Origin: Scrofimicrobium sp. R131
Lineage (GTDB): Bacteria; Actinomycetota; Actinomycetes; Actinomycetales; Actinomycetaceae
Direction: 5' to 3'
DNA length: 64,000 nucleotides
Assembly (NCBI RefSeq): GCF_040256745.1
Contig: NZ_CP138335.1
Coordinates: forward strand, 1 to 64,000
Below the pieces are notes generated by a model. That model was not told the origin of the DNA. It worked only from the letters and a program-made list of their open reading frames with translations, and ran no database searches. The translations under genes and the position numbers were made by a program. Below are positions 48,601-64,000 of the stretch, piece by piece. Numbering within the stretch: position 1 is the stretch's first letter; every line of letters starts with the position of its first letter.

Positions 48601-49539
48601 ATGACTACCTGGCCCAGCCTGTTCAACTTGGAGCTTTTCGTTGCCATCGTTGAGTCCGGCAGCATCGGCGGCGGCGCCCGTCGGATTGGGATTGCCCAAC
48701 CTCACGCCTCCCACATTGTCTCGGAGCTTGAACGAAGCTTAGGAGCCCCCCTGCTGGAACGGCGCCAAAGCGGTTCAACCCCAACTGAACTGGGAGTTGC
48801 CTATGCCGCTCAGGCTCGCCAGCTCCTTGAAGCCGCCCAGCACTTTGTCCACTGGTCCCAGTCACATCCCGCCTCATTGCACCAGGTGGTCCTGCGGGTG
48901 GGAGCCTCCATGACGATTGCCGAGACCCTGGTCCCCACCTGGGTGGCAGCTCTGCACGCTGAACACCCGCACATTGCCGTCGATCTGCGGGTGCTGAACT
49001 CCAAAGATGTCCTCCTTGGAATCAGGGATGGGGCGCTTCAACTGGGTCTGGTCGAAACTCCGCATCTGCCACCCGACCTGCAGCAAAGACAGATTGGCAC
49101 CGACCAGCTGGTCCTGGTGGTCGCCCCCACCCACCCGTGGGCCACCCGAACCGACCCGCTCACAATTGAGGAGCTGGCCCGAACCCAACTGGTAGTGCGC
49201 GAGGCGGGTTCGGGAACCAGGCGCGCCCTCGACGAGGTTCTCTCCCCGTACAACCCGGTTCCCCCGGCCCAGGTGCTCTACTCAAACATGGCGGTCCGGA
49301 TTGCGGTCGCGGCGGGCGGTGCCCCCGCAGTGCTTTCCGAACTGGCCGTTCACGAGCAACTCTTAAGCGGACAGCTGATCGAGGTGCCGGTGGAGCAGAT
49401 TATTCCGCGCCCGCTGGCAGCCGTGTGGAAATCGCGGGACCGACTCACCGGCGCCGCCGCCCTGCTGATCCGCTCGGCCCTGTCCACCGGAGTGGCGGGC
49501 TGGCGCAAACGTGGCGACAGTCAGGAAGGACCCCAATGA
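48601..49539 (+). CDS. LysR-family transcriptional regulator
   Basis: 312-residue regulator. The N-terminal winged helix is LELFVAIVESGSIGGGARRIG with ASHIVSELERSLG as recognition part. The effector domain has the two-lobed LysR substrate-binding fold (GASMTIAETLVPTWVAAL, LVLVVAPTHPW). I use ATG at 48601; the frame is open much further upstream, through the intergenic region, and no strong ribosome binding site marks either choice. It probably controls the divergent yeiH gene, and its stop overlaps the start of a GntR gene. Confidence 0.86.
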   Translation: MTTWPSLFNLELFVAIVESGSIGGGARRIGIAQPHASHIVSELERSLGAPLLERRQSGSTPTELGVAYAAQARQLLEAAQHFVHWSQSHPASLHQVVLRVGASMTIAETLVPTWVAALHAEHPHIAVDLRVLNSKDVLLGIRDGALQLGLVETPHLPPDLQQRQIGTDQLVLVVAPTHPWATRTDPLTIEELARTQLVVREAGSGTRRALDEVLSPYNPVPPAQVLYSNMAVRIAVAAGGAPAVLSELAVHEQLLSGQLIEVPVEQIIPRPLAAVWKSRDRLTGAAALLIRSALSTGVAGWRKRGDSQEGPQ

Positions 49540-49895
49540 ACCGGCTGAACCTGAAGGTGGATCCGCACCTGGGGACCCCACCCTTTGAGCAAATTCGCCA
49601 ACACCTAGCCAAGATGATCACCAGCGGGCAGTTACTGCCACAGGAAAAGCTTCCCTCTATTCGACAGTTGGCCCAGGATTTGGACGTGGCGCCGGGAACG
49701 GTGGCTCGCGCCTACTCTGACTTGGAAGCGTCCGGCCTGATTGAGAGCCGTCCGCGCCTGGGGAGCCGCGTCGCCGCGTCAACCTCCGCCTCGTCCCGCC
49801 TGTCCGAGGCGGCCCACCATTTCATCTCAGAGGCACAGGCTCAAGGATTGGACCTGGCTGAATCAAAGGAGCTCTTGTCCCGGCTGTGGGACTAG
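49536..49895 (+). CDS. GntR-family regulator, YtrA subfamily
   Basis: 119-residue protein with an N-terminal winged helix (KLPSIRQLAQDLDVAPGTVARAYSDLE spanning the helix-turn-helix) and a short helical C terminus of about 45 residues. It overlaps the LysR stop by four bases (ATGA) and is followed after 24 bases by an SdpI-like membrane protein gene, the likely partner. Such small GntR proteins usually repress an adjacent transporter or immunity gene. Confidence 0.88.
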   Translation: MNRLNLKVDPHLGTPPFEQIRQHLAKMITSGQLLPQEKLPSIRQLAQDLDVAPGTVARAYSDLEASGLIESRPRLGSRVAASTSASSRLSEAAHHFISEAQAQGLDLAESKELLSRLWD

Positions 49896-49919
49896 GTAGA
49901 CAACGGAGGAGGATCAACG

Positions 49920-50348
49920 ATGACTCTCATCTTTGCGCTCGGGCTGGCACTGGTCGGGGCGGTATTACTTTCGGTTGGAATCCGAGCCCAGCAGGGTCGG
50001 TTGCCTCTCGCCGGCGCCGGCGGCTTCCGGACGCCAGCGACCATGCAAAGCGAGGAAGTTTGGGTGTACGTTCACCGAAAGGTCGGCTGGGTAATGACCG
50101 CGGTTGGCAGCGCCTTCTTTCTGCTCGCTCTGGCTGGCGGGGTGGCTGATGCCCGCGGGTGGGAAACCCCACCCTACTATTGGGCAGTTGCTATCAGCAT
50201 GGCCGTGCTGCTGGCAGTGACCGTGGGCGCGAAGAGCTGGGCTAACCGGCTGGCTTTGGGCTACCAGTTGCCCGAGTCGGACGCAGACTCGCCCGATCAG
50301 AACGGGTCGGACCCCGAGCCGGACGACCCCACCCTGCCGAGAGGGTAG
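49920..50348 (+). CDS. SdpI-like membrane protein
   Basis: 142-residue protein with about three hydrophobic segments and an acidic C-terminal tail. The loop RTPATMQSEEVWVYVHRKVGW is the conserved motif of the SdpI family (RTPWTxKSExxW), known from Bacillus as the immunity protein against the SdpC toxin. No SdpC-like toxin gene is present here. Preceded by GGAGGATCAACG. Probably co-transcribed with the GntR gene. Confidence 0.8.
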   Translation: MTLIFALGLALVGAVLLSVGIRAQQGRLPLAGAGGFRTPATMQSEEVWVYVHRKVGWVMTAVGSAFFLLALAGGVADARGWETPPYYWAVAISMAVLLAVTVGAKSWANRLALGYQLPESDADSPDQNGSDPEPDDPTLPRG

Positions 50349-50416
50349 GGGTCGGCCGGGGCGGGGCCCAGGTGGATGTATGCGTGTCTCCTGATGTTAG
50401 GTGCTGCGGGACAAGG

Positions 50417-51637
50417 TCAGGAGATGGCCTGCACCAGCCGATCTCGCACCTCCGCAACCACCTCTTCGATGGTCCGATCCCGCCGATAACTGCCCGCCAA
50501 TGACCGGGCAGCGTGCAGCACTCCTCGCGCTGCGTGGGCCCGAATAGAAGGTTCTAGAGTTTCAATATCTGTGACCTTGGCAGCCCCCACAATTCTGCGC
50601 GACATCTTTGCCAGACCAAATAGCTGCATGTCGGAAAAGAGGCTCTGCAGCAAGTCTCGGACAAACACCTCATTCCACAGCTGCGGTGACATGTTTTCCT
50701 GGTTGAGGTGCGCAAACTCCTCAGCAAAGGCCGTCCAGGTATCTCTGATTAGTCCGAGCGCCCAGTCCATCCTGTCCGTGTCCCCCTGGACTCCGGCACG
50801 GGCAGCAGCGAACACATAGTTGGCGAAGAGAGCCCCCAGGTCATATCCAATCGGTCCATAGAACGCGAACTCCGAGTCGAACGCCTTCACCGACACCGCT
50901 TCATCACCTTCAACCTTCACCATCACTGAACCGGTATGTAGGTCGCCATGGATCAGGGCCTGAGCTTCAGTCATAAACTTCCACTTAGCTCTCGCCATGG
51001 CTAGGTGGAAGACGGGGTCAGCAGACAGTTCCCTTGCGTCCACTTCGTTCTCTGGCAGGACCACGTTTCGGCCGGCATCCACCACCGGTTCGGTGAAGAC
51101 AAGGTCTTCAGTGATGGTGCAGATTTCGGGGTTCTGGGTGTGTGCGATCTCCTTGGCAACTTCACCACGATCCTGACCCAGCATGGAGGTGTGGAAAGCA
51201 ACTTGGGCGACATATGCTCCCAACTTGTTCGCGACTCCATTCGTCACGCCACCCTCGTTGAGCACCGTGCGCCAAACCCGGTGATCAAATAGGTCCTCCA
51301 TAACTATGACGAACTGGTCCGGGTCAAACTGAAGAACGTTCACCACTAGTTCGGGCATCAGGTTGTGATGCACCTTCAGCGAGTGAGCCTCGTGTTCGGC
51401 CCGGGTCGGAGTCATGGGCCAGCCTTCCCCTGTCATTCGGACATAGGGCAATGCCTGTTTCAAAATAATGCTTTTGCCCTCCTCGTCCTTGATCCGAAAC
51501 ACCAGGTTGAGGTTGCCGTCGCCAATCTCGGTCACGGAGGCGAGCGCATTGAGGTTGATTCGGTTGGCCAAGTTAGGCTGCCGAGCCAAATAGTCGACGA
51601 CCGTGTCGAGGTTCAGGATTTCGTAATTGTGTGTCAT
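50417..51637 (-). CDS. mtnK: 5-methylthioribose kinase (or 5-deoxyribose kinase)
   Basis: 406-residue kinase of the aminoglycoside phosphotransferase fold. The catalytic loop is HGDLHTGS with Asp232, and the metal-binding triad is the family-specific DSE (254-256) in FDSEFAFYGPIGYDLG, which separates MtnK from other small-molecule kinases. It phosphorylates C1 of 5-methylthioribose; some relatives also use 5-deoxyribose. It is the last gene of an operon with mtnA and a sugar importer. No mtnBCD or aminotransferase set for full methionine salvage is nearby, but aldolases are, pointing to the dihydroxyacetone phosphate-forming route. Composition is visibly less GC-rich than in the flanking genes. 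Confidence 0.92.
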   Translation of the reverse strand: MTHNYEILNLDTVVDYLARQPNLANRINLNALASVTEIGDGNLNLVFRIKDEEGKSIILKQALPYVRMTGEGWPMTPTRAEHEAHSLKVHHNLMPELVVNVLQFDPDQFVIVMEDLFDHRVWRTVLNEGGVTNGVANKLGAYVAQVAFHTSMLGQDRGEVAKEIAHTQNPEICTITEDLVFTEPVVDAGRNVVLPENEVDARELSADPVFHLAMARAKWKFMTEAQALIHGDLHTGSVMVKVEGDEAVSVKAFDSEFAFYGPIGYDLGALFANYVFAAARAGVQGDTDRMDWALGLIRDTWTAFAEEFAHLNQENMSPQLWNEVFVRDLLQSLFSDMQLFGLAKMSRRIVGAAKVTDIETLEPSIRAHAARGVLHAARSLAGSYRRDRTIEEVVAEVRDRLVQAIS

Positions 51638-51692
51638 TTTCCGCCCCCTAGAGAGTGTTTATGGTTGGTTGCCGCACACCGATTGTGCTCGC

Positions 51693-52739
51693 CTACGTAG
51701 CCGGGACGTAGCGCGATTGTTTCCGAGAGAGAGTGAACGAGAAGAGGAGTGCCACGATCAGGACAATGCCCTTCGCCGTGTCCTGCTGATAATACTGGAA
51801 GCCCATCATGGTCATGCCCGTCAAAACTATGGCAATCAAGAGCGCACCAAGCAAAGTACCCCACGCATTCGGCTTGTTCATCCCAAGGATAGACTGTCCC
51901 ACCAAAGCTACGGCCACTGCCTCGAGCAGAGCCGAAGCCCCCGCATTTACGTCACCTTGGCCGATTCTGGACACCAGGATGATTCCGGCAATCGATGCGA
52001 ACACCGCTGAAATTACGTAGGCGAGTCCGTGGTGTAGACCCACTCGGATACCGGCCAGCCGTGCCGCCTCCGGGTTAGCACCAATGGCATACATGATTCG
52101 TCCCCAAGACGTCTTGGTCAGCAAGAACCATGACAAGATCACTAGGATCATCATGATGACCACCGGCAGCGGGATAGGTCCGATCATGCCTCGGTCTATT
52201 TTCAGGAAGACTGGGTCGAACTTTCCCGGGGCAGTAGATCCGTCCGACAGGATCATCCCGGAAGAGACTGAAAGTCCTGAGACAGGGATGAGCTTTGCTC
52301 CTTGGATGACGAACATCATCCCGAGAGTGGCCAACAGATCAGGGATCTTGAGAACAACTATCAGGAAAGCGTTCACCAGACCAACAATCAGACCGGCAAC
52401 TAGAACTACTCCGACAGCCACGTAACCGGTCAGGTTGTAGAACACCATCATCATGGCCGCCAACTGCACCCCTAGGCCTGCTGTGGAGCCGATGGACAAG
52501 TCCAGCCCTCCAACAATCATGGAGAACATGACTCCCAAGCCTAAGATGGCTGTCACCGAGGCAAATTTCAGCATTGAGAAGATCGAGTTTGGCGTAGCAA
52601 AGGCTGGCTCAGTCACTGCAAAGAAGACAGCAGCCAACACGGTGACGACAATGAAACCGTATTTGACCACCCCGTCTCTGGTTCGATCCCAGGCGCTGAG
52701 AGAGGGCTCGCCGGTTTTGATTGTCTTATTCATTTTCAA
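51693..52739 (-). CDS. Sugar ABC transporter permease (RbsC/XylH-like)
   Basis: 348-residue membrane subunit of a ribose-type importer with about nine or ten helices. Family motifs are GVMFSMIVGGLDLSIGS and the coupling region AIGANPEAARLAGIRV, plus GQGDVNAGASALLEAVAVALVG. Only one permease gene is present, so it should act as a homodimer. It overlaps the ATPase gene by 14 bases. Given the neighbours, the cargo is probably a 5-deoxypentose such as 5-methylthioribose or 5-deoxyribose. Confidence 0.9.
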   Translation of the reverse strand: MKMNKTIKTGEPSLSAWDRTRDGVVKYGFIVVTVLAAVFFAVTEPAFATPNSIFSMLKFASVTAILGLGVMFSMIVGGLDLSIGSTAGLGVQLAAMMMVFYNLTGYVAVGVVLVAGLIVGLVNAFLIVVLKIPDLLATLGMMFVIQGAKLIPVSGLSVSSGMILSDGSTAPGKFDPVFLKIDRGMIGPIPLPVVIMMILVILSWFLLTKTSWGRIMYAIGANPEAARLAGIRVGLHHGLAYVISAVFASIAGIILVSRIGQGDVNAGASALLEAVAVALVGQSILGMNKPNAWGTLLGALLIAIVLTGMTMMGFQYYQQDTAKGIVLIVALLFSFTLSRKQSRYVPAT

Positions 52740-54261
52740 CTACCTCAGTCATGCTCTGAACGATTTCTTCATTGGTTACTTGGTCGGCCCGACGGTCGAG
52801 AGCGATTTCTCCTTCGACTAGGACCACGATCCGATCGGCCACCTCACGGGCCTCGTTGACATCACTGACCGCCACGACGACGCAGGTTCCAGCAGCCGCT
52901 GCAGCACGGGCCCGCCTGCCCAACTCTCGTCGGGCGCCAATATCTACCCCTCGGAAGGGCTCGTCCAGAATCAGGATGGTGCCCTGTGTCTGAAGCCAGC
53001 GAGAAACCACGACTTTCTGTTGGTTGCCTCCGGAGAGAGCATCAACTGCTTGCGTGGGTCCCGCCGCCACCACTTTAAAATCCTCCATAGCCGCTACCGC
53101 AGCCCGCCGTTCAGCCTTACGATCGAAAGTCAGTCCGCGAACATACTTACTCAGGAATGGAAGAGAATAAGTCTCCTCAACAGACCACCCTGGAAGCATC
53201 GACTGCGCAGCTCGATCTTCTGGAACTAGATAGACTCCATGGCTAATGGCGTCCTTTGGATGTCGAGCCCGGTATTTTTTCCCACGGATTCGGAGTTCTG
53301 CGCCCTTACTATCGGCTGCACCAAAAATGGTCTCTAGCAGTTCAGTCTTTCCGGCCCCAATCAACCCAATGATTGCTGTAACTTCACCGGCACGGGCCTG
53401 GAAGTCCACCGGGGCGGAGTAATCGAAAATCTGCAGCTGATTTACCTCTAGCACGACCTCGTCTCCAGTCAACTCACTGAACTGCTCGAGATCTGTCTCA
53501 ATATCCTCTCCAAGCATGGATCGGACTGCCTGGTTAAGGTCGAAGGGACTCTTCTGTCGATCGACAATCCGACCGTCACGTAGCACAGCAACATCATCAG
53601 CCAGGGCTTTGATCTCTCCCATGCGGTGAGACACGTATAGGATGGCTACGCCCTGGTCGCGCAGACGAAGAATCAGCTCAAAAAGTCGCTCAGTCTCGCC
53701 CTGAGAGAGGGTCGAAGTGGGCTCATCGAGGATGAGAACTTTGGGCTCGTTCTCCAGTGCCCGCGCAAGCAGCAGCATCTGACAATCAGCGATTCCCAAC
53801 TCATAGACATCGCGCTTAAGAAACGCGTCGTCCCAGCCCAAATTCAAGATGTCGGCAATCTGTCTGGCCTTTGGGAGTAGAGAGCGAAGAGAACTCACTG
53901 GACGGGCCTCACCTTGAGCGATCTGCTCAAACACTAGGTTTTCGGCCACGCTAAGTCCCGGGACAATTGCGTCGTCAATCCTTTGGTGAACTGTTCTGAT
54001 TCCGGCTCGACTGGCCTCCAAAGGACTGGACACATTCGCGTCCTTCCCTCCCAAGAGGATTCGCCCTCCGGTGAGTGGATACACACCTGACAGAATCTTG
54101 ATCAGGGTGGACTTCCCTGCTCCGTTGGCCCCCAAAAGGGCGGTAACGCGTCCCGGACGTAGCTTAAGGGTTACCCCTTTCAACACCCGATTCAGGCCGA
54201 AATTCTTGGTGATGTCATGCAGTTCTAGAATCGGTGCATCAGCGTCAGTGCTGCTACTCAT
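52726..54261 (-). CDS. Sugar ABC transporter ATPase, tandem domains (RbsA-like)
   Basis: 511-residue protein with two ATPase domains. Domain 1 has Walker A GANGAGKST and Walker B LILDEPTSTLS; its signature is degenerate (ELGIADCQM in place of LSGGQ). Domain 2 has a variant Walker A GLIGAGKTE, signature LSGGNQQKV and Walker B LILDEPFRGVD. The asymmetry is normal for this family. It lies between the binding-protein gene (separated by a hairpin) and the permease gene. Confidence 0.92.
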   Translation of the reverse strand: MSSSTDADAPILELHDITKNFGLNRVLKGVTLKLRPGRVTALLGANGAGKSTLIKILSGVYPLTGGRILLGGKDANVSSPLEASRAGIRTVHQRIDDAIVPGLSVAENLVFEQIAQGEARPVSSLRSLLPKARQIADILNLGWDDAFLKRDVYELGIADCQMLLLARALENEPKVLILDEPTSTLSQGETERLFELILRLRDQGVAILYVSHRMGEIKALADDVAVLRDGRIVDRQKSPFDLNQAVRSMLGEDIETDLEQFSELTGDEVVLEVNQLQIFDYSAPVDFQARAGEVTAIIGLIGAGKTELLETIFGAADSKGAELRIRGKKYRARHPKDAISHGVYLVPEDRAAQSMLPGWSVEETYSLPFLSKYVRGLTFDRKAERRAAVAAMEDFKVVAAGPTQAVDALSGGNQQKVVVSRWLQTQGTILILDEPFRGVDIGARRELGRRARAAAAAGTCVVVAVSDVNEAREVADRIVVLVEGEIALDRRADQVTNEEIVQSMTEVVENE

Positions 54262-54289
54262 CTGCCTGTTCCCTTTGTTGGCGGTGGGG

Positions 54290-54316
54290 GTGGGCGGCCC
54301 CTTAGGGGCCGCCCAC
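54290..54316 (-). terminator. Intercistronic stem-loop after the binding-protein gene
   Basis: GTGGGCGGCCCC (54290-54301) and GGGGCCGCCCAC (54305-54316) form a perfect 12-bp stem with a 3-base loop and no T run. It probably stabilises the binding-protein message or partly attenuates transcription into the ATPase gene. Confidence 0.7.
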
Positions 54317-54322
54317 TATCAA

Positions 54323-55438
54323 TCAGAAGCTAACCGACGGAATCCAGTCGGCGCTGGAGACGTCAGAGATGTTTAGCTCTGGGAAAGCTGCCCGCAGGTC
54401 TTCCATGTTGTTGATATCCTCGTCCCGGAGCATCTCCTGGGTGACCAGAATCGGCGGGAAATCAACAGTCATACCATCCAACTGCCCGGCCATATGCAGT
54501 ACCAGAGTTCGCAAAACTGCGGCACCAATTGCGTTGGGATCGGTGGCGCCGGTGGCGATCCAACGTGAACCGTCGGCCTTCATCAGCTCAATGTCGGCGT
54601 TGGAGATGTCGGCTCCGTACACTTTGATGTCCTCAGTCCCTGGGATCTGATCAAGACCTGTCAGTGTCCCCTTAGTGAACTCGTCATACGGAGCATAGAT
54701 AGCTACTACGTCCGGGTTGGCCTGGACCGCAGCCGTGACCATCGGGGCCGTGTCAGTGGCACTGGAGTTGGTGAAAGAGCCAGTCTTGAACTTTTCCTCC
54801 CAGCCGTTCTTCTCCGTATAATCGCGCCAGACAACATCACGCCGGTCGAGCGGGGCAATCCCTGCGACATTCACGTATCCCACCTGCGTATCGGTGCCGA
54901 TATCCTCAAGCATCCGATCCAAAACTAGTGAGGCCATCAGCGCATCTGACTGTTGCGTCTGGACGGCCTCCGGTGCACACTGCTGAATCTCCACGTCATA
55001 GATCACCACCGGGATACCCTGCTCGATGGCCTTGTTTACTCCCGGGCACAAGGTGTCCGGGAAACCGTGACGAACCACAATTCCATCTACCCCGGCAGCA
55101 ATGGCCTGATCCAACTGGCTTGCCTGAGCCGAGTTGTCTCCCTGGGCGTCATAGACCGAGAGGTCAATTCCCAGCGCCTCGGCCTGTTGTTTGGTCCCAT
55201 TCAAATACTGCTGAAAGTAGTCACCCTGCCCAGACTGCTGGACAATCGCAATCTTGACGCCCCCAGAAGCAAAGGGTTCTGGGGCATCAGCAGTCGTCTC
55301 AGACACGGATCCCTGGTCGGAGTTGTTGGCGTCTGAGGAGGGAGCGGACTGTTCCGCAGGTGACTGAGTACAGCCGGCGACTGTGACCGCCATGGTCAGC
55401 GCGAACCCGGCGGTAAGGGTTCTGGTTAGCTTACGCAT
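54323..55438 (-). CDS. Sugar-binding lipoprotein (RbsB-like)
   Basis: 371-residue lipoprotein. The lipobox TVAGC gives Cys23 as anchor, followed by a Ser/Asp/Glu-rich linker to about residue 58. The mature part is a periplasmic-binding-protein type I fold (KIAIVQQSGQGDYFQQYLNG, GVDGIVVRHGFPD). It would deliver the sugar to the RbsA/RbsC-like subunits. It follows mtnA by 50 bases and ends in a strong hairpin, consistent with excess production of binding protein. Confidence 0.9.
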   Translation of the reverse strand: MRKLTRTLTAGFALTMAVTVAGCTQSPAEQSAPSSDANNSDQGSVSETTADAPEPFASGGVKIAIVQQSGQGDYFQQYLNGTKQQAEALGIDLSVYDAQGDNSAQASQLDQAIAAGVDGIVVRHGFPDTLCPGVNKAIEQGIPVVIYDVEIQQCAPEAVQTQQSDALMASLVLDRMLEDIGTDTQVGYVNVAGIAPLDRRDVVWRDYTEKNGWEEKFKTGSFTNSSATDTAPMVTAAVQANPDVVAIYAPYDEFTKGTLTGLDQIPGTEDIKVYGADISNADIELMKADGSRWIATGATDPNAIGAAVLRTLVLHMAGQLDGMTVDFPPILVTQEMLRDEDINNMEDLRAAFPELNISDVSSADWIPSVSF

Positions 55439-55488
55439 CTATGCGTCCTTTCACGTTTCTTTTGCTGGTGTTGCATTACGTCGGGGCG

Positions 55489-56529
55489 CTAGAACAGGGG
55501 GCGATCTTCCACACCTGGTTCAACTACGCCATTTTCAGTGACTATTGCTGAGATGAGTTCGTGGGGAGTCACATCGAACGCCGGGTTGAATGCCTGCGCT
55601 CCTTCGGCTGCCAATGACACTCCACCAATAGTCAGTACTTCTTCAGCAGGGCGCTCCTCAATCTCAATGAGCTCCCCCCTGGGAGTGTCCACGTCAACTG
55701 TGGACGAGGGAGCAGCCACCACGAAGGGGATTCCCCGGTAGTTGGCTGCCAGTGCCAACGCTACGGAGCCGACCTTGTTCGCGGTATCTCCGTTGCGAGT
55801 AATCCGATCCGCCCCAATGACAGCAAAGTCGGCAAACCCTCTGAGGATTGTGCTTGCGGCGGCACCATCAACTTCAACCGCGTGCGGGATCCCATCGCGG
55901 CTCAGTTCCCAGGAAGTCAGGCGGGTTCCTTGGAGCAGTGGCCGAGTCTCGTCCACATAGACAAACTCCAGGCGACCCCTCAGGTGCAGCTCATGCAGGA
56001 TTCCATAGGCTGTTCCCCAAGCAGTAGTGGCCAAAGCGCCAGTGTTGCAGTGCGTAACTGCCCGCAGCGGCCGGTCCCCCAGCTGATCCAGAAGCCAGTC
56101 TGCCCCTGCGCTTGCGAGAGCCCGATTTGCCTCTTCGTCTTCAGCTGCCAATTGATGTGCTTCACTTAGTGCCTGCGAAAATGCTTCATCCGTTGCCGTC
56201 AAGGCTCGAAGGCTTCCCAGCACCCTATCGGTTCCCCATGCCAGGTTTACCGCCGTAGGCCGCGCGTCACGGATACGACCTACTTCCAATGCCAGTCGAT
56301 CATCGTCCCATTGCTCCCGCTGCCCTTGACTGATGGCTAGAGCAACTCCATACCCACCAGCAGCACCGAGAGCGGGTGCACCCCGCACTGCCAAGATTTG
56401 AATGGCATCAACCAAGTCAACAACATCGGTGATCTCGAGGTACTTTTCTTCCTTGGGAAGTAGAGTCTGGTCAATCAAACGAATTTGCGGTGGGTTGGTG
56501 GAGGCCACCCACTCGATTGCTTTTACCAC
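55489..56529 (-). CDS. mtnA: Methylthioribose-1-phosphate isomerase (or 5-deoxyribose-1-phosphate isomerase)
   Basis: 346-residue aldose-ketose isomerase. The catalytic cysteine is Cys161 in THCNTGALAT and the catalytic aspartate is Asp241 in IGADRI, with the family stretches AVRGAPALG, DETRPLLQGTRLT and NGDTANKVG. It converts 5-methylthioribose 1-phosphate (or the 5-deoxy analogue) to the ribulose 1-phosphate. It is first in the leftward operon. The GTG start has GAGGAG seven bases upstream. A promoter with an overlapping GntR-type operator lies at 56576-56605. Confidence 0.94.
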   Translation of the reverse strand: MVKAIEWVASTNPPQIRLIDQTLLPKEEKYLEITDVVDLVDAIQILAVRGAPALGAAGGYGVALAISQGQREQWDDDRLALEVGRIRDARPTAVNLAWGTDRVLGSLRALTATDEAFSQALSEAHQLAAEDEEANRALASAGADWLLDQLGDRPLRAVTHCNTGALATTAWGTAYGILHELHLRGRLEFVYVDETRPLLQGTRLTSWELSRDGIPHAVEVDGAAASTILRGFADFAVIGADRITRNGDTANKVGSVALALAANYRGIPFVVAAPSSTVDVDTPRGELIEIEERPAEEVLTIGGVSLAAEGAQAFNPAFDVTPHELISAIVTENGVVEPGVEDRPLF

Positions 56530-56575
56530 GGCGGTTCTCCTCTGAACTTCGTCGTTCGTCTACGTCTTGGAGCAT

Positions 56576-56605
56576 ACGGTATCCAGTTGACTGACAACCT
56601 GTCAA
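56576..56605 (-). promoter_or_regulatory. mtnA promoter with overlapping GntR-type operator
   Basis: On the minus strand a perfect -35 TTGACA (56600-56605) and -10 TACCGT (56576-56581) are 18 bases apart. The palindrome TGACA-ACC-TGTCA (56592-56604) covers the -35 and the start of the spacer. A near-identical site (CGACA-ACC-TATCA as read on the minus strand) lies in the promoter of the aldolase operon, so the HutC-type regulator encoded between them is the likely repressor of both arms. Confidence 0.7.
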
Positions 56606-56706
56606 CCCTCTAGAGCTATTTGTCTCAACTCGTTGATCTAGTACCCTAGCAACATGGGGAAAATGGGCCCAGTGTCCACCTAGTTGTCAAGTAGACCGGA
56701 GCGGGT

Positions 56707-57447
56707 ATGTCCACACAAGGATCAAGAGTTGCATTCGTGTCCCAAAGTCTTCGCGAAGCTATCGAGGGGGGCCAATATTCTCCCGGTGATCGTCTGCCTA
56801 CCGAAAGCCAACTTGCCAAAGAGTTCGAAGTATCCCGCCCAACGGTTCGCGCGGCTTTGCGTGATTTGCAGGCCTTAGCCCTGGTAAAGACACAACATGG
56901 TGTCGGCACTTTCGTGCAAGAGGCACAGCCGATTCATGCTGGTCTGGAACGCCTGGACTCCATCAGCGAATCGATCAGACGTAGTGGTCACGAACCGGGA
57001 ATGCAGTACCAAAGTCGAGTACTGCGCCCACTGATGCCAGAGGAAGCGGAAAAGCTGGATCTTTCCGCAGATTCTATTGCCCTTGAGATCCGGCGCTCTA
57101 TCCTCAGTGACAACCAGGTGGTGGCCTACTCCTACGACCTCATGCCCGTGGGAGTCTTTCCAGAAGGTGAGGATCCCATGGTCTTGCAGGGGTCACTGTT
57201 TACCTACCTCAAGGAAGAGCGCGGCCTGTTTCCTGACTACGCAGTCGCAGAGATCCATGCAGTAAGTTCCGATCGGATCGCCTGGGATACAAGAGCTACC
57301 AACACTTTGTACGTTCTGCTCGATCAGGTGCACTACAGTGCAGAAGACGTTCCCTTGCTTTACTCCAGAACCTACTTCCTTGAGGGACGGTACGCATTCC
57401 GGGTGATCAGGAACGCGGGAACCCAGGAGATTCTCAAGAGTCAGTAG
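56707..57447 (+). CDS. GntR-family regulator, HutC/UTRA type
   Basis: 246-residue regulator. The winged helix covers residues 10-75 (DRLPTESQLAKEFEVSRPTVRA). The C-terminal UTRA ligand-binding domain (about 95-240) has SYDLMPVGVFPEG and the late YSRTYFLEGRYAFRV. UTRA proteins sense sugar phosphates or small acids. It lies between the two arms of the 5-deoxypentose locus and probably represses both until a pathway phosphate ester appears. The start is the ATG at 56707, with CCGGAGCGGGT upstream. Confidence 0.9.
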   Translation: MSTQGSRVAFVSQSLREAIEGGQYSPGDRLPTESQLAKEFEVSRPTVRAALRDLQALALVKTQHGVGTFVQEAQPIHAGLERLDSISESIRRSGHEPGMQYQSRVLRPLMPEEAEKLDLSADSIALEIRRSILSDNQVVAYSYDLMPVGVFPEGEDPMVLQGSLFTYLKEERGLFPDYAVAEIHAVSSDRIAWDTRATNTLYVLLDQVHYSAEDVPLLYSRTYFLEGRYAFRVIRNAGTQEILKSQ

Positions 57448-57546
57448 CCCTAGACTCACGTGGGACGTTCGCCCTTGCTGCCCGGAATCTGACGTCAGGC
57501 TCGTAGCCGGGATCGAACCCGAGACTTTCCAACCTTCTTCCGTTTT

Positions 57547-57575
57547 TTGACAATCTCTGATAGGTTGTCGGACAA
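57547..57575 (+). promoter_or_regulatory. Promoter and GntR-type operator of the aldolase operon
   Basis: A perfect -35 TTGACA (57547-57552) is followed by TGATA-GGT-TGTCG (57558-57570). The latter is the reverse complement of CGACA-ACC-TATCA and matches the mtnA operator at 11 of 13 bases. It occupies the promoter spacer. The -10 (around 57570) is poor. The gene start follows 27 bases later. Confidence 0.65.
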
Positions 57576-57601
57576 CGTCGTCGGTCGAAGGAGCAAGAGA
57601 C

Positions 57602-59557
57602 GTGTCCGCTCGAACCTCATCAGATTCTATTTTCTCTCTGTCACAGCTGATTTCTGCATCGCACGTGCTTGGGAGTGATCCCTCGCTCGTGCTGCGCGGA
57701 GGAGGCAACTGTTCGGTCAAAGGGGTCTGGACCCTGCCGGACCAAACACAAGTTGAAGCTCTATACGTCAAGGGCTCGGGTCATGACCTGGGAACGTTAA
57801 CCACCGATGGATTAACACCCCTGCGTCTCGAACAGGTACGTGGCTACCTAAGTTCCCCGCTTGTCTCTCAGGACTCATTAATGGACGCTCTTCTAGCGGC
57901 CCGCCTCGACCCCAGTTTTCCTGCACCTTCGGTGGAGTCATTAGTCCATGCCGCGTGGCCCCGACCCTTTGTGCTGCACACCCACGCAGATGTCGTGCAA
58001 GGCTTGACAGACACAGCAAGTGCCGCCGAGATCGCCCACCAAGTCTGGGGGGAGCGGGCACTCTTCCTCCCTTACGCCACTCCAGGACTCCCGTTAGGAC
58101 TGGCCGTGGTTGAAGCCTTCAAGTCTCAGCCACACACTCAAATCCTCATCGTCGAATCCCACGGAGTGTTCACTGCCGGCGACAGTGCGGACGAAGCTCT
58201 GGACCTGCATCGCTGGGTGATCACACAAGCTGCCAAGTTCATCGACTCCCTTGATGTTCCACCGCTGAATCTGAGGTCACCTCTCGAACTTTCACCCAAC
58301 ACTAGCTACCAAATAGCACAGCTGCGCCAAAACCTAAGCGAGATAGCTGGGGAGCCCCTAATCCTCCGTCACTACCCCAACTCGCCTGTGGGCCGCCTCG
58401 GTGAAGACTCGCACCTACTTGCCGCCATGAAACGTGGTCCGGCCACCCCCGATCACGTCACTTGGGTTGGGCCCGGTGTGATTGAGGTGGGGAGTGTGGG
58501 CCAATATCCGGAAAAGTATCGCGAGTATGTGGCGCGTCAAGCCACACGAACAGGGTTGGAGACTGAACCTTTTGCCGGTTTTCCCCGCGCTATTGTCCTG
58601 CCCGAGATTGGCCTAGTCACCGCAGGACGACAGGGTGAGGAGGCCGATGCAACACGAGAAATCTGTGAACACACGCTAGAGGTAGTCCGAATCGCCGAAG
58701 CCTTAGGGGGCTATCGGCCAGCTCCCGAGGAACACGTTTTTGATTTGGAATATTGGCGTCCCCAACGGGAGAAATACTTCCGTCGAGAGCGGTCAGGTCC
58801 AGATGCAGGCCGGGTAGTGCTAGTGACAGGTGCCGCATCCGGAATCGGGCATGCGTGCGCAAAGGCTTTCCTAGACAGAGGCGCTAGCGTGATTGGCTGG
58901 GACCTCAGCCCAGCCGTAGTGGACGCATTTGCTTCGCCAAACTGGCTAGGTCAGGTTGTAAATGTAACCAATGTCGACCGGCAGCAGGAAGCCTTGAAAG
59001 AGGCCGTGGCGCATTTTGGTGGGTTGGACGTGTTCGTTCCGGCAGCTGGGATTTTCCCCTCAGCCGAAGACTTGTCGGAACTTAGGCTAGACGCCTGGCA
59101 ACGCACGTTGGACATCAACACGACCGCTGCAGTTGCCGGTCTAAAACTATGTCACCCGTATCTCCGTCACGCGGTTGACGGAGGCTACGTCTGCGCGATC
59201 GCTTCCAAGAATGTCGCGGCACCCGGGTACGGAGCGGCAGCCTATTCAGCCTCCAAAGCGGCTTTGACTCAAGTGCTCCGGGTAGCTGCCTTGGAGTGGG
59301 CAGGTGACGGCATTCGCGTAAACATGGTCCATCCGGATGCAGTGTTCGATACAGCTTTGTGGACGCCAGATCTGCTAGCAAAGCGTGCAGAGCACTACGG
59401 TCTCACGGTCGACCAGTACAAGCGACGAAACCTACTGCATGCAGAGATCACCTCCCAGCGAGTCGGAGAGCTTACCGCCACCATGTGCAGTCAGGTCTTC
59501 TCTTGCACCACCGGTGCGGGAGTTCCCATCGACGGAGGCAATGAACGCGTCATCTAG
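57602..59557 (+). CDS. Bifunctional class II aldolase / short-chain dehydrogenase
   Basis: 651-residue fusion. The N-terminal part (1-~390) is a class II aldolase of the RhaD/RhaE type: GGGNCSVK (33-40), a putative acid at Glu112, and zinc ligands His126/His128 (HTHAD) and His187 (ESHGVF). The C-terminal part (~400-651) is an SDR with TGAASGIG (~408), PAAGIFPSAEDL and YSASK (~549). In rhamnose-degrading bacteria such fusions split a deoxyketose 1-phosphate and process the lactaldehyde. Here, next to MtnK and MtnA, the SDR might instead oxidise the ketose 1-phosphate or the released aldehyde. GTG start with GAAGGAG upstream; first gene of the rightward catabolic operon. Confidence 0.9.
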   Translation: MSARTSSDSIFSLSQLISASHVLGSDPSLVLRGGGNCSVKGVWTLPDQTQVEALYVKGSGHDLGTLTTDGLTPLRLEQVRGYLSSPLVSQDSLMDALLAARLDPSFPAPSVESLVHAAWPRPFVLHTHADVVQGLTDTASAAEIAHQVWGERALFLPYATPGLPLGLAVVEAFKSQPHTQILIVESHGVFTAGDSADEALDLHRWVITQAAKFIDSLDVPPLNLRSPLELSPNTSYQIAQLRQNLSEIAGEPLILRHYPNSPVGRLGEDSHLLAAMKRGPATPDHVTWVGPGVIEVGSVGQYPEKYREYVARQATRTGLETEPFAGFPRAIVLPEIGLVTAGRQGEEADATREICEHTLEVVRIAEALGGYRPAPEEHVFDLEYWRPQREKYFRRERSGPDAGRVVLVTGAASGIGHACAKAFLDRGASVIGWDLSPAVVDAFASPNWLGQVVNVTNVDRQQEALKEAVAHFGGLDVFVPAAGIFPSAEDLSELRLDAWQRTLDINTTAAVAGLKLCHPYLRHAVDGGYVCAIASKNVAAPGYGAAAYSASKAALTQVLRVAALEWAGDGIRVNMVHPDAVFDTALWTPDLLAKRAEHYGLTVDQYKRRNLLHAEITSQRVGELTATMCSQVFSCTTGAGVPIDGGNERVI

Positions 59558-59574
59558 CCGGAAAGGTAACACCC

Positions 59575-59934
59575 GTGAAGAAAACCAGCATCCATCAACC
59601 AGTTGTCTATCGCCACAATGATTGGGGACCAGCTTACCTACTTAGAGACGATCCATACGAGCTAGGAGTGGTCCGGCTCCGACCGGGCGACGAAGTGGAC
59701 AACCATTATCATCGCCATTGCGTCGAGTCGTTCATCGTAATGGAGGGCAGTTGCACCCTGTGGGTTGACCAGGGCGCACCAGTGACCCTAACCGTCGGAG
59801 ACATTGTCAGCTCCGCCGCTAACGAACAGCACTATTTGCGTAACGACACCGAGGAACCGTGCAGGTTCATTTTCTTGAAGACCCCTTCAAGCCCGGGAGA
59901 TACCATCGCGGTTCCCTGGGTGCCCAGCAACTAA
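59575..59934 (+). CDS. Small cupin-domain protein
   Basis: 119-residue single-domain cupin. Motif 1 fits the consensus exactly: Gly38, His44, His46, Glu51, Gly58 (NHYHRHCVESFIVMEG). Motif 2 keeps Gly75, His86 and Asn90. Four metal ligands are therefore in place. It is too short for acireductone dioxygenase (MtnD). Its position directly before the LsrF gene suggests a keto-enol or ketose isomerase, or an anomer-converting enzyme, of the pathway; in AI-2 breakdown the unrelated LsrG does the comparable isomerisation. Function inferred from context only. Confidence 0.82.
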   Translation: MKKTSIHQPVVYRHNDWGPAYLLRDDPYELGVVRLRPGDEVDNHYHRHCVESFIVMEGSCTLWVDQGAPVTLTVGDIVSSAANEQHYLRNDTEEPCRFIFLKTPSSPGDTIAVPWVPSN

Positions 59935-59958
59935 CAGAACCAGAAAAGGAGCACTACT

Positions 59959-60843
59959 GTGGCCGACCTAGAAGGCAACTTGAACGCGAAGAACTTCCAC
60001 ACTGAAACACCAACCCCTGACTATGGGTTCCATGTCAAGGGTGCCAGCCACCTGGATTTTGGGATGAAGCGGCGCTTGTCGCGCATCTTTCAGGCGGATG
60101 GCCGGACCGTCATGCTGGCATTTGATCACGGTTATTTCCAGGGGCCCACTCGCGGCCTAGAACGAGTTGATCTCAACATTGTCCCGCTGGCACCTTGGGC
60201 TGATGCCCTTATGGGCACACGCGGGATCTTTCGATCAAGCTTCCCCGCCGATGGAAACATGCCCCTGGTTGTGCGTGCCTCAGGCGGTCCATCGATTCTT
60301 CGGGAACTATCGGACGAGCACGTGGCCTTGGACATGGCCGATGCGGTTCGCCTAGATTCCAGTGCTGTTGCAGTCCAAGTGTTTGTGGGAGGGGAACACG
60401 AGTCGCGTTCAATTCAGAATATGACCACCCTGGTCGACCAGGGAATGAAGGTAGGTATCCCAGTCCTTGGCGTCACCGCGGTTGGCAAGAACTTGGTCCG
60501 AGATTCCCGCTATCTCGGACTAGCGACCAGGATGATTGCCGAGCTTGGGGCACAGATGGTCAAGACATACTACTGCGAGCAGGATTTCGAGGAGGTGGTA
60601 GCGGGCTGCCCAGTTCCGGTCATCGTTGCGGGCGGAAAGAAACTACCGGTTCCCGAAGCGCTGGATATGGCTTACCGTTCAATCCAAGCTGGCGCGGCCG
60701 GCCTGGACATGGGTCGAAATATCTTCCAGAGACAAAGCCCAAGCGCCATGATTCAAGCAGTTCGCGGAGTTGTACATGACGGGCTGAACGTGGCTGAGGC
60801 GGTAGAACAGTATCGGGAACTGTCAGGCGGGTTGACCGACTAG
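59959..60843 (+). CDS. lsrF: LsrF-like thiolase (3-hydroxy-5-phosphonooxypentane-2,4-dione thiolase)
   Basis: 294-residue class I aldolase-fold enzyme very close in pattern to enteric LsrF: AFDHGYFQGPTRGLERVDL (54-72), the Schiff-base lysine Lys202 in VKTYYCEQ, GCPVPVIVAGGKKLP and GLDMGRNIFQ. In Escherichia coli LsrF transfers an acetyl group from the phosphorylated AI-2 derivative to CoA, giving acetyl-CoA and dihydroxyacetone phosphate. No lsrK, lsrG or lsrR is here. Instead the gene is in an operon with aldolases and a cupin, divergent from mtnA/mtnK. GTG start; GAAAAGGAGCAC upstream. Confidence 0.9.
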   Translation: MADLEGNLNAKNFHTETPTPDYGFHVKGASHLDFGMKRRLSRIFQADGRTVMLAFDHGYFQGPTRGLERVDLNIVPLAPWADALMGTRGIFRSSFPADGNMPLVVRASGGPSILRELSDEHVALDMADAVRLDSSAVAVQVFVGGEHESRSIQNMTTLVDQGMKVGIPVLGVTAVGKNLVRDSRYLGLATRMIAELGAQMVKTYYCEQDFEEVVAGCPVPVIVAGGKKLPVPEALDMAYRSIQAGAAGLDMGRNIFQRQSPSAMIQAVRGVVHDGLNVAEAVEQYRELSGGLTD

Positions 60844-60859
60844 AAAGGGGAATCAGCCT

Positions 60860-61504
60860 GTGACAAGCACCTATTTGTCCACCCGACAAGCTGTGATAGA
60901 GGTCGGACAGCGACTTTGGAAACGCGGATACGTGGCCAGCAACGATGGCAACATATCTGTCAAGGTATCGGCCGACTTGATCCTCTGCACCCCCACGGGC
61001 GTATCCAAAGGATTCATGACGCCGGACTCCTTGGCGCTGGTGCATCCGGACGGAACTGTTGTGGACCGTGGAACAGGTGGCGGTCCTTCGTCAGAGATCA
61101 AGATGCACCTTCGCGTGTATCAGGAAGATCCCTCCGTCCAAGCGGTAGTTCACGCTCACCCTCCCATTTCAACCGCATACGCGGTTCTAGGTGAACCTCT
61201 CGAAGCGAACCTATTGCCCGAAATAGCACTGCTGATGCCACGTGTACCCATTGCTCCTTATGCAACACCGTCCACCGAACAGGTACCTAATTCCGTGGCG
61301 CCGCTAGTGGCTGATCATCGAGTTTGCCTACTGGAGCAACACGGAAGTCTCTCATGGGCAGACTCACTTGAAGAAGCGTACTTAGCTACTGAACGGTTGG
61401 AATACTACGCCCAGCTTCTGTTCAACCTGCATCTTCTTGGGCGGATGCGGGAACTCACTTCCGAACAGGTTCACGCACTGCGAGTACAGTTTGGACAAGT
61501 CTAA
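60860..61504 (+). CDS. Class II aldolase (5-deoxyribulose/5-methylthioribulose 1-phosphate aldolase-like)
   Basis: 214-residue stand-alone zinc aldolase of the FucA/AraD family. It has SNDGNIS (27-33), TPTGVSKG, the catalytic Glu79 in SSEIKMHL, and zinc ligands His98, His100 (VVHAHPP) and His161 (EQHGSL). MtnB dehydratase belongs to the same family, but without MtnC/MtnD a retro-aldol cleavage to dihydroxyacetone phosphate and an aldehyde is more likely. It is the last gene of the operon, 16 bases after lsrF, and is followed by a long perfect hairpin. GTG start with AGAAAGGGG upstream. Confidence 0.88.
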   Translation: MTSTYLSTRQAVIEVGQRLWKRGYVASNDGNISVKVSADLILCTPTGVSKGFMTPDSLALVHPDGTVVDRGTGGGPSSEIKMHLRVYQEDPSVQAVVHAHPPISTAYAVLGEPLEANLLPEIALLMPRVPIAPYATPSTEQVPNSVAPLVADHRVCLLEQHGSLSWADSLEEAYLATERLEYYAQLLFNLHLLGRMRELTSEQVHALRVQFGQV

Positions 61505-61505
61505 T

Positions 61506-61549
61506 CAGTTGCGGGGAGAACTTGACGCATCAAGTTCTCCCCGCAACTG
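61506..61549 (+). terminator. Perfect 19-bp stem-loop ending the catabolic operon
   Basis: The 19 bases 61506-61524 pair perfectly with 61531-61549 around the loop ACGCAT; the core is GCGGGGAGAACTTG. It starts two bases after the aldolase stop. The T run is weak (AAGTTAAGCCTT), but stem length makes it a likely terminator and mRNA end. Confidence 0.85.
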
Positions 61550-61612
61550 AAGTTAAGCCTTGAACCGAAGCCCATGGACTAGACCATTGCAGGTCACGAT
61601 GCTCGACACCCC

Positions 61613-61660
61613 TTGCCAAACAGATCGTTTATCGATATGTTTGTCTCGATTATCAATCGA
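61613..61660 (+). promoter_or_regulatory. Promoter and possible operators of the DUF2975/XRE pair
   Basis: -35 TTGCCA (61613-61618) and -10 TATGTT (61636-61641) are separated by 17 bases. TATCGATA (61630-61637) overlaps the -10, and TCGATT-ATC-AATCGA (61646-61660) is a perfect 6-bp inverted repeat just downstream. These could be autoregulatory sites for the XRE protein of the pair. Confidence 0.6.
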
Positions 61661-61671
61661 AAGGGGTGGCG

Positions 61672-62175
61672 ATGAGTCGACTGGTTTACGGCATCTTGCG
61701 CCTGATTTTGGCCCTGCTCGCAGCAATCCTGCTGTTCTTCCAGGTGCTGGCGATCATCATCATGTCCCAGCCTTGGGGGTTTGAGAGCCCGGAGGCCTAC
61801 AAGTTCCTCATTTTCACCGTGCTGATTTTGGGCGCAATCTGCGTGCAGGTGGTACTGGCCTCGGTGTGGCACCTTCTCACCATGGCCTACCACGGCACGG
61901 TGTTCTCCCCCCGCGCATTCCGATCGGTCGACGTGGTGATCGGGGCGGCCGCCACCGCTGCCGTGCTCTCCACCCTGCTGACCTTTGTGCTTGGCTACCT
62001 GGGTCGAAGCACCGGCGAGATTCCGCCCGGGGCTGTCCTGATAGCCCTGATCCTGGCGCTTGTGGCTGTGGGCGTGGGTTTGATTGTCTACGTCCTCCGG
62101 CTCCTTCTGGCCCAAGCGGTCAGCCGCGACGTGGAGGCCAACCAGTTGGCGGCCGAACTGGACGGGGTGATCTGA
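61672..62175 (+). CDS. DUF2975 membrane protein
   Basis: 167-residue protein with four transmembrane helices (for example LVYGILRLILALLAAILLFF and the last, LIALILALVAVGVGLIVYVL) and short loops. The layout matches DUF2975, which is regularly encoded with a YozG-like XRE regulator. Function unknown; this pair is widespread in Gram-positive bacteria and often linked to stress or envelope responses. I use ATG at 61672 with AAAGGGG five bases upstream; a GTG at 61666 is possible. The stop overlaps the regulator's start. Confidence 0.82.
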   Translation: MSRLVYGILRLILALLAAILLFFQVLAIIIMSQPWGFESPEAYKFLIFTVLILGAICVQVVLASVWHLLTMAYHGTVFSPRAFRSVDVVIGAAATAAVLSTLLTFVLGYLGRSTGEIPPGAVLIALILALVAVGVGLIVYVLRLLLAQAVSRDVEANQLAAELDGVI

Positions 62176-62408
62176 TGCCGATTGTGGTGGACATCGATGT
62201 CATGCTGGCAAAAAGGAAGATGTCTGTCGGGACGCTGGCAGAGCGGATCAACCTTTCACCCGCCAACTTGGCAGTACTGAAGAACAATCGAGCCAAGGCC
62301 GTTCGCTTCACCACTTTGGACGCCCTGTGTCGGGTGCTCGAGTGTCAACCGGGCGATCTGTTGCGGTGGGTGCCTGAAGGCGACTCGGGAACCGAAGCCA
62401 GCCAGTAG
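62175..62408 (+). CDS. XRE-family regulator (YozG-like)
   Basis: 77-residue protein made almost only of a helix-turn-helix: MLAKRKMSVGTLAERINLS, then LAVLKNNRAKAVRFTTLDAL and CRVLECQPGDLLRW. The final motif is typical of the short YozG group. It overlaps the DUF2975 stop by one base. It probably controls its own operon through the palindromes at 61630-61660. Confidence 0.9.
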   Translation: MPIVVDIDVMLAKRKMSVGTLAERINLSPANLAVLKNNRAKAVRFTTLDALCRVLECQPGDLLRWVPEGDSGTEASQ

Positions 62409-62422
62409 GCCACCACCAGGCG

Positions 62423-62463
62423 AACGAGGCGGCCCCCCTCATCCGGTTGGACGCCTCGTTTTG
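62423..62463 (+). terminator. Intrinsic terminator of the DUF2975/XRE operon
   Basis: AACGAGGCG (62423-62431) and CGCCTCGTT (62452-62460) form a perfect 9-bp stem with a 20-base loop, followed by TT and GCTC. Confidence 0.75.
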
Positions 62464-62539
62464 CTCAGCACTTTTCTAGCTGTCGTCCCAGTTGGGCCGG
62501 CCACCACTTTTTCTGGTGCCGTCCGAGAGATACTGAGGC

Positions 62540-63920: not shown

Positions 63921-63998
63921 TCACTCCAGCTCAAGCGCACCGGCCTGGATCCACACAACCCAGGCCTGTTGCAGCACCGTGACCGCCTCGTCCCTAGT
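63921..63998 (-). CDS. Possible C-terminal end of a gene running off the window
   Basis: On the minus strand a frame entering from the right edge reads 25 codons, ending EAVTVLQQAWVVWIQAGALE-LE and TGA at 63921-63923. Codon use is GC-rich at third positions, as in neighbouring genes, and the peptide looks like an amphipathic helix. The opposite strand is also open here, so the direction is uncertain. No family is recognised. Confidence 0.3.
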   Translation of the reverse strand, partial: TRDEAVTVLQQAWVVWIQAGALELE

Positions 63999-64000
63999 GC

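Follow-up and report, generated by a model that had tools for sequence, protein, structure and literature searches.

What could an orthologue of LsrF, an enzyme of autoinducer-2 (AI-2) breakdown, be doing in one locus with the kinase gene mtnK and the isomerase gene mtnA? The question is raised by positions 50417-61504 of the first 64,000 nucleotides of contig NZ_CP138335.1 from Scrofimicrobium sp. R131 (this whole stretch is called the window). The locus is divergent: mtnA, a binding protein, an ATPase, a permease and mtnK follow each other leftward, and a GntR regulator, a class II aldolase fused to a short-chain dehydrogenase/reductase (SDR), a cupin, lsrF and a second class II aldolase rightward (Table 1). 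An earlier note on this DNA had listed mtnK, mtnA, a sugar importer, the fusion, the cupin, lsrF and the second aldolase as one divergent locus and had proposed that an SDR step joins the MtnA product to LsrF. All genes it named were recovered as open reading frames where it had placed them, and the family matches agree; the GntR/UTRA gene between the arms had gone unmentioned. The gene families, a shared operator and a recurrent linkage are observed directly. From these we put the probability at about 0.5 that the cluster encodes an oxidative variant of the dihydroxyacetone phosphate (DHAP) shunt that acts on a 5-deoxypentose taken up by the importer, with 5-deoxyribose the likeliest candidate.

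In this pathway, MtnK would phosphorylate 5-deoxyribose and MtnA would convert the product to 5-deoxyribulose 1-phosphate, as is known for the E. coli homologues, and the NAD-type SDR half of the fusion would oxidise this compound to the dicarbonyl level. Oxidation at C4 would directly give 3-hydroxy-5-phosphonooxypentane-2,4-dione (HPD-P); after oxidation at C3, the carbonyl would have to be moved by the aldolase-fold half or the cupin. LsrF would then split HPD-P with coenzyme A (CoA) to acetyl-CoA and DHAP, as is known for E. coli LsrF, and a single type of operator would probably place the importer, the kinase, the isomerase, the dehydrogenase and the thiolase under common control of the GntR protein. 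Compared with the aldolase route, the two-carbon end would be saved as acetyl-CoA and not released as acetaldehyde. The carbon chemistry of the earlier note is correct on paper, since C4 oxidation of 5-deoxyribulose 1-phosphate gives HPD-P, the substrate that names the LsrF model NF006081.

According to PMC10986504, 5-deoxyribose and its phosphate serve as substrates for MtnK and MtnA in the E. coli DHAP shunt, and in air two carbons are lost as ethanol; the shunt of strain ATCC 25922 is encoded by mtnK-mtnA-ald2 (PMC10986504 and PMC12632272). PMC7828210 describes cleavage of phosphorylated AI-2 by LsrF, from which acetyl-CoA and DHAP arise. The ATCC 25922 shunt and the window cluster are alike in MtnK, MtnA, a class II aldolase-family gene, a regulator, the 5-deoxypentose substrate (predicted here) and DHAP as a product, and the pair by which a DHAP shunt is recognised, MtnK (or MtnP) with MtnA, was found here with both proteins over curated cut-offs. 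In contrast to E. coli, the window adds the dehydrogenase fusion, the cupin, LsrF and an ATP-binding cassette (ABC) importer, its regulator is of the GntR and not the DeoR type, and the predicted second product is acetyl-CoA instead of acetaldehyde. Family calls were based on Pfam domains and on NCBIfam models with curated cut-offs, which were passed by MtnK, MtnA and LsrF and, among the models listed, by neither the fusion nor the second aldolase.

The earlier note knew of no description of this combination, and we found none of mtnK or mtnA with LsrF in the open-licence literature, judged mostly by titles and the first lines of abstracts and, for the broader topics, by the top entries of longer result lists. 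In that literature, nothing was found for lsrF with 5-deoxyribose, the match for lsrF with mtnK mentioned the two in separate lists of induced genes in the passages that name them, and 5-deoxyribulose with acetyl-CoA led only to the E. coli DHAP shunt paper. Bacillus thuringiensis reportedly disposes of 5-deoxyribose via 5-deoxyribulose 1-phosphate and an aldolase, ending as acetaldehyde; this disposal shares the intermediate and an aldolase with the window and, unlike it, is not known to involve LsrF. It is named in PMC6302742. The methylthioadenosine (MTA)-isoprenoid shunt, as given in PMC5893883, likewise uses the MtnA product and a cupin; it relies on a RuBisCO-like protein (RLP), whereas the window cluster has no RLP gene and carries LsrF and an SDR instead.

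The linkage of these genes is recurrent. Scores over the MtnK cut-off came from 2 of 296 genomes in a phylum sample (G000, G302), 3 of 198 in an order sample (G000, G172, G080) and 3 of 151 in a Chloroflexi sample (G521, G588, G664). Five of these seven different genomes have both lsrF and an aldolase-SDR fusion in the mtnK cluster (the window, L149, L141, L182 and L180), and neither gene was present in the 20 kb read from the other two (G080, locus L178; G664, locus L179); G080 gave no LsrF match genome-wide, and G664 was searched for LsrF only within these 20 kb. The G080 locus has the same divergent mtnK-ABC-mtnA/gntR layout and ends in one stand-alone class II aldolase, the arrangement that a plain DHAP shunt would be expected to have. 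LsrF itself was over its cut-off in 27 of 296 phylum-sample and 8 of 198 order-sample genomes. The window gene set was also present in Actinotalea (L060) and Cellulomonas (L062), with the ATPase left out of the listing; these two loci were found via LsrF and therefore stand outside the count of five in seven. A Burkholderiales contig pairs mtnA with lsrF as well. Since the Chloroflexi fusions form another lineage, joined to rhamnose fusions by long branches in a quick tree, the mtnK-fusion-lsrF pairing may have arisen twice. Homologous loci in which lsrF is never linked to mtnK or mtnA would, in the terms of the earlier note, have spoken against its idea; instead, the link was present in five sampled Actinomycetota and Chloroflexota genomes. 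An MtnA match was found in 39 of the 45 genomes given for 80 lsrF loci (36 over cut-off), compared with 8 of 14 control genomes over cut-off, and because MtnA is so common, its presence in lsrF genomes is weak evidence.

Both arms appear to share an operator. An 18-base pattern from the mtnA promoter, with up to three mismatches, matched 56587-56604 and 57558-57575 (0.13 matches expected; two were reached in 1 of 100 shuffles). A search of all 2.22 Mb of the genome for exact copies of the core TTGWCNGACAAC gave just two, at 56587-56598 and 57564-57576, and none for its reversed control; this bears out the shared operators claimed in the earlier note. With one mismatch allowed, the core showed no excess in the window: the four matches, all at the two operator places, compare with 1.70 expected, and 14 of 100 shuffles reached four. 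With a looser pattern, L060 and L062 each showed sites ahead of both mtnA and the fusion, and L063 showed one ahead of the fusion; the fusion-side sites of L060 and L062 lie inside the longest fusion frame called, yet upstream of the start of homology. The same pattern gave no site at the matching promoters of L141, L067, L118, L178, L180 and L182, and five unrelated matches in ten stretches (one each in the window stretch, L060, L141, L118 and L182). The GntR protein is probably the regulator of both arms through one operator type. Because this type recurs before both arms, the importer, mtnK and mtnA are probably controlled together with the rightward genes, that is, the fusion, the cupin, LsrF and the second aldolase.

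Over 285 amino acids, the window LsrF shares 58.9% identity with its E. coli counterpart, and it departs from near-invariant alignment columns at one place. The column of the Schiff-base lysine, which we take to be K203 in E. coli, holds lysine in all 98 aligned rows, the window included. In the LsrF tree, the actinobacterial proteins from mtn-type loci (Actinomycetota) fall among LsrFs of AI-2-kinase loci in one clade (support 96), and the nearest protein, 73% identical to that of the window, belongs to a locus (L142) whose kinase passes the AI-2 cut-off (632.7 against 528). That nearly the same LsrF is used in AI-2 and mtn settings would be best explained if both routes yield the same compound, HPD-P.

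Does the cluster then handle AI-2 itself? Like an lsr operon, it has LsrF with predicted CoA thiolysis of HPD-P, a sugar-type ABC importer and a cupin, which some lsr operons carry; unlike one, it has MtnK and MtnA as kinase and isomerase and an added dehydrogenase. No LsrK was over the cut-off in the genome (best 234.8 against 528), and LsrG was not found in positions 49001-64000, the part of the genome searched for it (E. coli LsrG, tblastn, E ≤ 1e-3); across the collected loci and this stretch, the LsrG search gave matches only in L158 and L175. The absence of lsrK and lsrG, for which the earlier note had proposed to search mtnK-mtnA-lsrF neighbourhoods, held here genome-wide for an LsrK over cut-off, and for LsrG within 49001-64000 only. 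On these two results we rejected the cluster as an AI-2 lsr operon. It is also highly improbable that imported 4,5-dihydroxy-2,3-pentanedione is phosphorylated by MtnK or another kinase, isomerised by the cupin and cleaved by LsrF: luxS does adjoin the MTA/S-adenosylhomocysteine (SAH) nucleosidase gene (L156:1501-2651, near 113 kb of the window's own genome), and cupin and LsrF do recur in AI-2-kinase loci, but besides the missing kinase and LsrG, the binding protein scores far under the LsrB cut-off and is not of LsrB type, and MtnA would have no use.

The same nucleosidase (115.8 against a cut-off of 73.8) bears on the sugar. By family, it should release both 5-deoxyribose and methylthioribose in the cell, and the ABC importer points to a supply of sugar from outside. 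The family names of MtnK and MtnA and the nucleosidase would also suit 5-methylthioribose as the main substrate, with the same oxidative chemistry giving (methylthio)acetyl-CoA and DHAP. We consider this improbable: the window LsrF is close to LsrFs of AI-2-kinase loci, which handle a methyl end, and no gene for the fate of methylthioacetyl-CoA was seen in the cluster, where alone it was looked for.

The oxidative step is suggested by what surrounds lsrF elsewhere. A scan of genome contigs for LsrF yielded the best 80 lsrF loci, a sample therefore biased to close relatives, and 63 of them have an SDR, a zinc-dependent alcohol dehydrogenase or a GlpD-like enzyme on the same strand within 5.5 kb of lsrF (50, 8 and 7 loci, respectively, two loci having two of these three unrelated kinds). 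Without the 14 Chlorobiaceae loci the count is 49 of 66. Among the 33 loci of at least 20.8 kb, 27 have such a near dehydrogenase, compared with 5 in distal windows of similar size (5.5-10.5 kb). The GlpD-like proteins of three loci scored 351.4, 328.5 and 263, all below the glycerol-3-phosphate dehydrogenase cut-off of 360; on paper, GlpD-type oxidation beside the phosphomethyl group of 1-deoxypentulose 5-phosphate would also give HPD-P. In four loci whose kinase is over the AI-2 cut-off (L064, L142, L144 and L145), the aldolase part lacks an SDR domain; the substrate there would already be a diketone, with no oxidation needed. In L144, this kinase is encoded on the opposite strand at a distance of 8.3 kb, and that strand also carries two SDRs, at 4.8 and 6.7 kb. 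In an annotated lsr operon of Sinorhizobium meliloti pSymB, lsrB is likewise followed by an SDR-less class II aldolase from the same family as the fusion (L196:5929-7179), and the annotation of that stretch includes neither lsrF nor lsrG; in Sagittula such an aldolase adjoins lsrF and an FGGY kinase, which was not scored. Conversely, L087, L140 and L176 have a fusion and an FGGY kinase below the AI-2 cut-off in one run. A second Shinella locus (L174) was left out of the kinase scoring. The SDR part of the fusions has the NAD-type aspartate, the tyrosine and the lysine in 43 of 43 rows (the window and one contig were entered twice in the alignment).

Against these lines of evidence stands a known-type DHAP shunt, in which the aldolase half or the second aldolase would cleave 5-deoxyribulose 1-phosphate to DHAP and acetaldehyde, the SDR half would convert the aldehyde, and LsrF would be an add-on for another compound. 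We regard this as unlikely, but several observations favour it and weigh against the oxidative pathway. The glutamate and three histidine ligands of the aldolase part are kept in 48 of 48 rows (the window and one contig were entered twice), as is the phosphate loop in the patterns listed. The conserved residues would leave room for plain aldol cleavage, and in the oxidative pathway neither this half nor the second aldolase has a sure job. Rhamnose operons also contain fusions from this superfamily, which split the phosphorylated sugar there and catalyse lactaldehyde oxidation. The window fusion shares its domain layout with the bifunctional rhamnulose-1-phosphate aldolase-dehydrogenase (RhaD/RhaEW); it was rejected as RhaD, being below the cut-off of TIGR02632 (325.9 against 567.75) and in a clade apart from the two rhamnose fusions compared, and the cluster has no rhamnose genes. 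Its nearest NCBIfam model is NF006196 (bifunctional aldolase/SDR), whose cut-off it does not pass.

Other genomes separate the fusion from LsrF, and LsrF from MtnA. G144 has a fusion 46% identical to that of the window and over the NF006196 cut-off (980.8 against 831), next to a further pair of SDRs, an MTA phosphorylase (mtnP) over its cut-off and an amidohydrolase that resembles deaminases of MTA and 5'-deoxyadenosine but scores below their cut-offs; mtnA follows about 8.5 kb beyond, and the genome has no LsrF match. The fusion may therefore serve a deoxypentose pathway without LsrF. In three further genomes (G031, G119, G105), an ABC importer adjoins a fusion 44-45% identical to the window's; the fusion locus lacks lsrF and the genome lacks MtnA, and G105 has lsrF elsewhere. 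Among the seven order-sample genomes with the best fusion matches (at least 449 bits), lsrF lies beside the fusion in three (G000, G172, G153). No MtnA match was found in a metagenome-assembled genome (L067) that has the fusion, cupin, LsrF and second aldolase of the window type where one of its contigs begins, and G153 and G007 combine lsrF and an SDR without MtnA in the genome, so that other substrates exist. In the locus survey, the dehydrogenase profiles were seeded from the same loci in which they were counted, 17 of the best 80 loci have no such dehydrogenase nearby (some are cut by contig ends), and L112 combines a kinase over the AI-2 cut-off with an SDR 4.6 kb away. Since the fusion occurs without LsrF, and LsrF without MtnA, the locus may still have a DHAP-shunt role. 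A plain shunt, however, gives no account of LsrF, of the shared operator or of the repeated pairing of mtnK with the fusion in five of seven genomes; moreover, aldolase parts in AI-2-kinase loci come without an SDR, and in the tree the window fusion groups apart from both rhamnose fusions included. Of the pathway put forward in the earlier note, the families, the chemistry on paper and the recurrent lsrF linkage held, and the G144 genome, in which mtnP and mtnA accompany a fusion and LsrF is missing, went against it.

The G144 neighbourhood is an observation in its own right: fusion, two SDRs, deaminase-like amidohydrolase and MTA phosphorylase (L202:7367-13127), in a genome without an LsrF match, could form a nucleoside-to-DHAP route.

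The homologues of MtnK and MtnA might also accept another deoxy sugar, such as 1-deoxyxylulose or a branched deoxypentose, with the same fate at LsrF. LsrF-dehydrogenase pairs with pentulose-type FGGY or DhaKL-type kinases in place of MtnK, and those of G153 and G007, speak for this; we give it little chance here, as MtnK and MtnA are well above their curated cut-offs. Eight actinobacterial lsrF loci (L068, L069, L071, L072, L073, L079, L087, L140) have a GlpD-like enzyme and an FGGY kinase, possibly a further oxidative LsrF route; the FGGY kinases checked, in L068, L140 and L087, were not over the AI-2 cut-off. Because DhaK and DhaL homologues adjoin lsrF in four loci (L177 by annotation; L074, L146 and L147 by profile), a DhaKL-type kinase may feed LsrF. 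In L074, a fusion-type SDR stands alone beside DhaK/DhaL and lsrF.

Returning to the oxidative DHAP-shunt variant, 5'-deoxyadenosine and methylthioadenosine arise as by-products wherever cells use S-adenosylmethionine, and a route that keeps two carbons as acetyl-CoA would change the view of by-product sugar salvage. If the pathway is true, the waste sugar 5-deoxyribose is probably turned into two useful building blocks by an added oxidation and an enzyme borrowed from the breakdown of a signal molecule. Among the surveyed loci, many phyla carry LsrF without an AI-2 kinase beside it, and the pathway would explain why an enzyme treated as a quorum-sensing one occurs there. A broader picture is possible, though we lean against it: dehydrogenation followed by LsrF thiolysis might be a general bacterial route for methyl-ended deoxypentose phosphates, fed by several kinases (MtnK, pentulose FGGY, DhaKL) and three unrelated dehydrogenases (SDR, zinc-dependent alcohol dehydrogenase, GlpD-like), with AI-2 degradation as the one branch without oxidation and the RLP of green sulfur bacteria as an isomerase.

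All 14 Chlorobiaceae loci of the sample have fusion, LsrF, RLP and SDR in this order on one strand (L078, L081, L085, L088, L107, L111, L113, L121, L122, L123, L125, L127, L129, L131; the RLP was checked with PF00016 on L085 and by profile in the others), and MtnA was over its cut-off in all five genomes tested (L078, L081, L085, L107, L129). An isomerase role of the RLP in the LsrF route is suggested because it shares one gene run with fusion and LsrF. We assume that these RLPs belong to the Photo clade; PMC5893883 links the tepidum RLP to the stress response and to the oxidation of sulfur. That the RLP acts on a 5-deoxy compound in the LsrF pathway is an idea for testing and not a finding, and the proposed route offers a direct test of what the green sulfur bacterial RLP does.

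Table 1 Genes and candidate operators of the divergent mtnK-mtnA-lsrF locus (window coordinates)
Feature	Position	Strand	Basis
mtnK	50417..51637	-	TIGR01767 375.3 bits, cut-off 275
Sugar ABC permease	51693..52739	-	PF02653; ribose/arabinose-type permease models below cut-off
Sugar ABC ATPase, two ATPase domains	52726..54261	-	PF00005 twice
Periplasmic-type sugar-binding protein	54323..55438	-	PF13407; LsrB model 32.6 bits, cut-off 384
mtnA, 5-methylthioribose 1-phosphate isomerase	55489..56529	-	TIGR00512 390.1 bits, cut-off 279
Putative operator before mtnA, core TTGACTGACAAC	56587..56604		Pattern search; similar site before mtnA in L060, L062
GntR/UTRA regulator between the arms	56707..57447	+	PF00392 and PF07702
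Putative operator before fusion, palindrome GTTGTCGGACAAC	57558..57576		Pattern search; similar site before fusion in L060, L062, L063
Class II aldolase (about residues 11-300) fused to SDR (about 400-651)	57602..59557	+	PF00596, PF00106, PF13561; NF006196 684.8 bits, below cut-off 831
Small cupin	59575..59934	+	PF07883 (Cupin_2)
LsrF orthologue, predicted CoA-dependent HPD-P thiolase	59959..60843	+	NF006081 450.7 bits, cut-off 297
Second class II aldolase-family protein	60860..61504	+	PF00596; no NCBIfam model over cut-off

ATPase, permease and periplasmic binding protein form an importer of the sugar-ABC type. The best NCBIfam match of the second aldolase is 3-oxo-tetronate 4-phosphate decarboxylase (132.8, below the cut-off of 250); by cut-off it is not MtnB (TIGR03328, 78.4 against 137.05), which was looked for within the cluster. 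With the class II aldolase that stands alone in the G080 locus, the protein compared here in place of E. coli Ald2 itself, it shares 32.5% identity. The cupin is modelled as an ordinary one-domain cupin fold (mean predicted local distance difference test score 77.1), and a fold search with the model returned, among the 50 matches listed, only small cupins or cupin domains with varied roles, none of which settles its function. A simple replacement of LsrG by the cupin was not upheld, because a Salmonella plasmid lsr operon carries both LsrG and a cupin of the same profile.

Two smaller groups of lsrF loci have other neighbours. Genes of the 2-oxoacid dehydrogenase type lie near LsrF, an RPE-family epimerase and an SDR in L080, L086 and L115 (E1 and a transketolase-like protein were checked in L115, E2 in L086), and L080 also has a PfkB kinase and a D-lyxose isomerase at the lsrF locus. 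In L098, L108 and L114, lsrF is near two genes conserved among these loci (clusters c129 and c127), with a zinc-dependent alcohol dehydrogenase upstream in L098 and L114.

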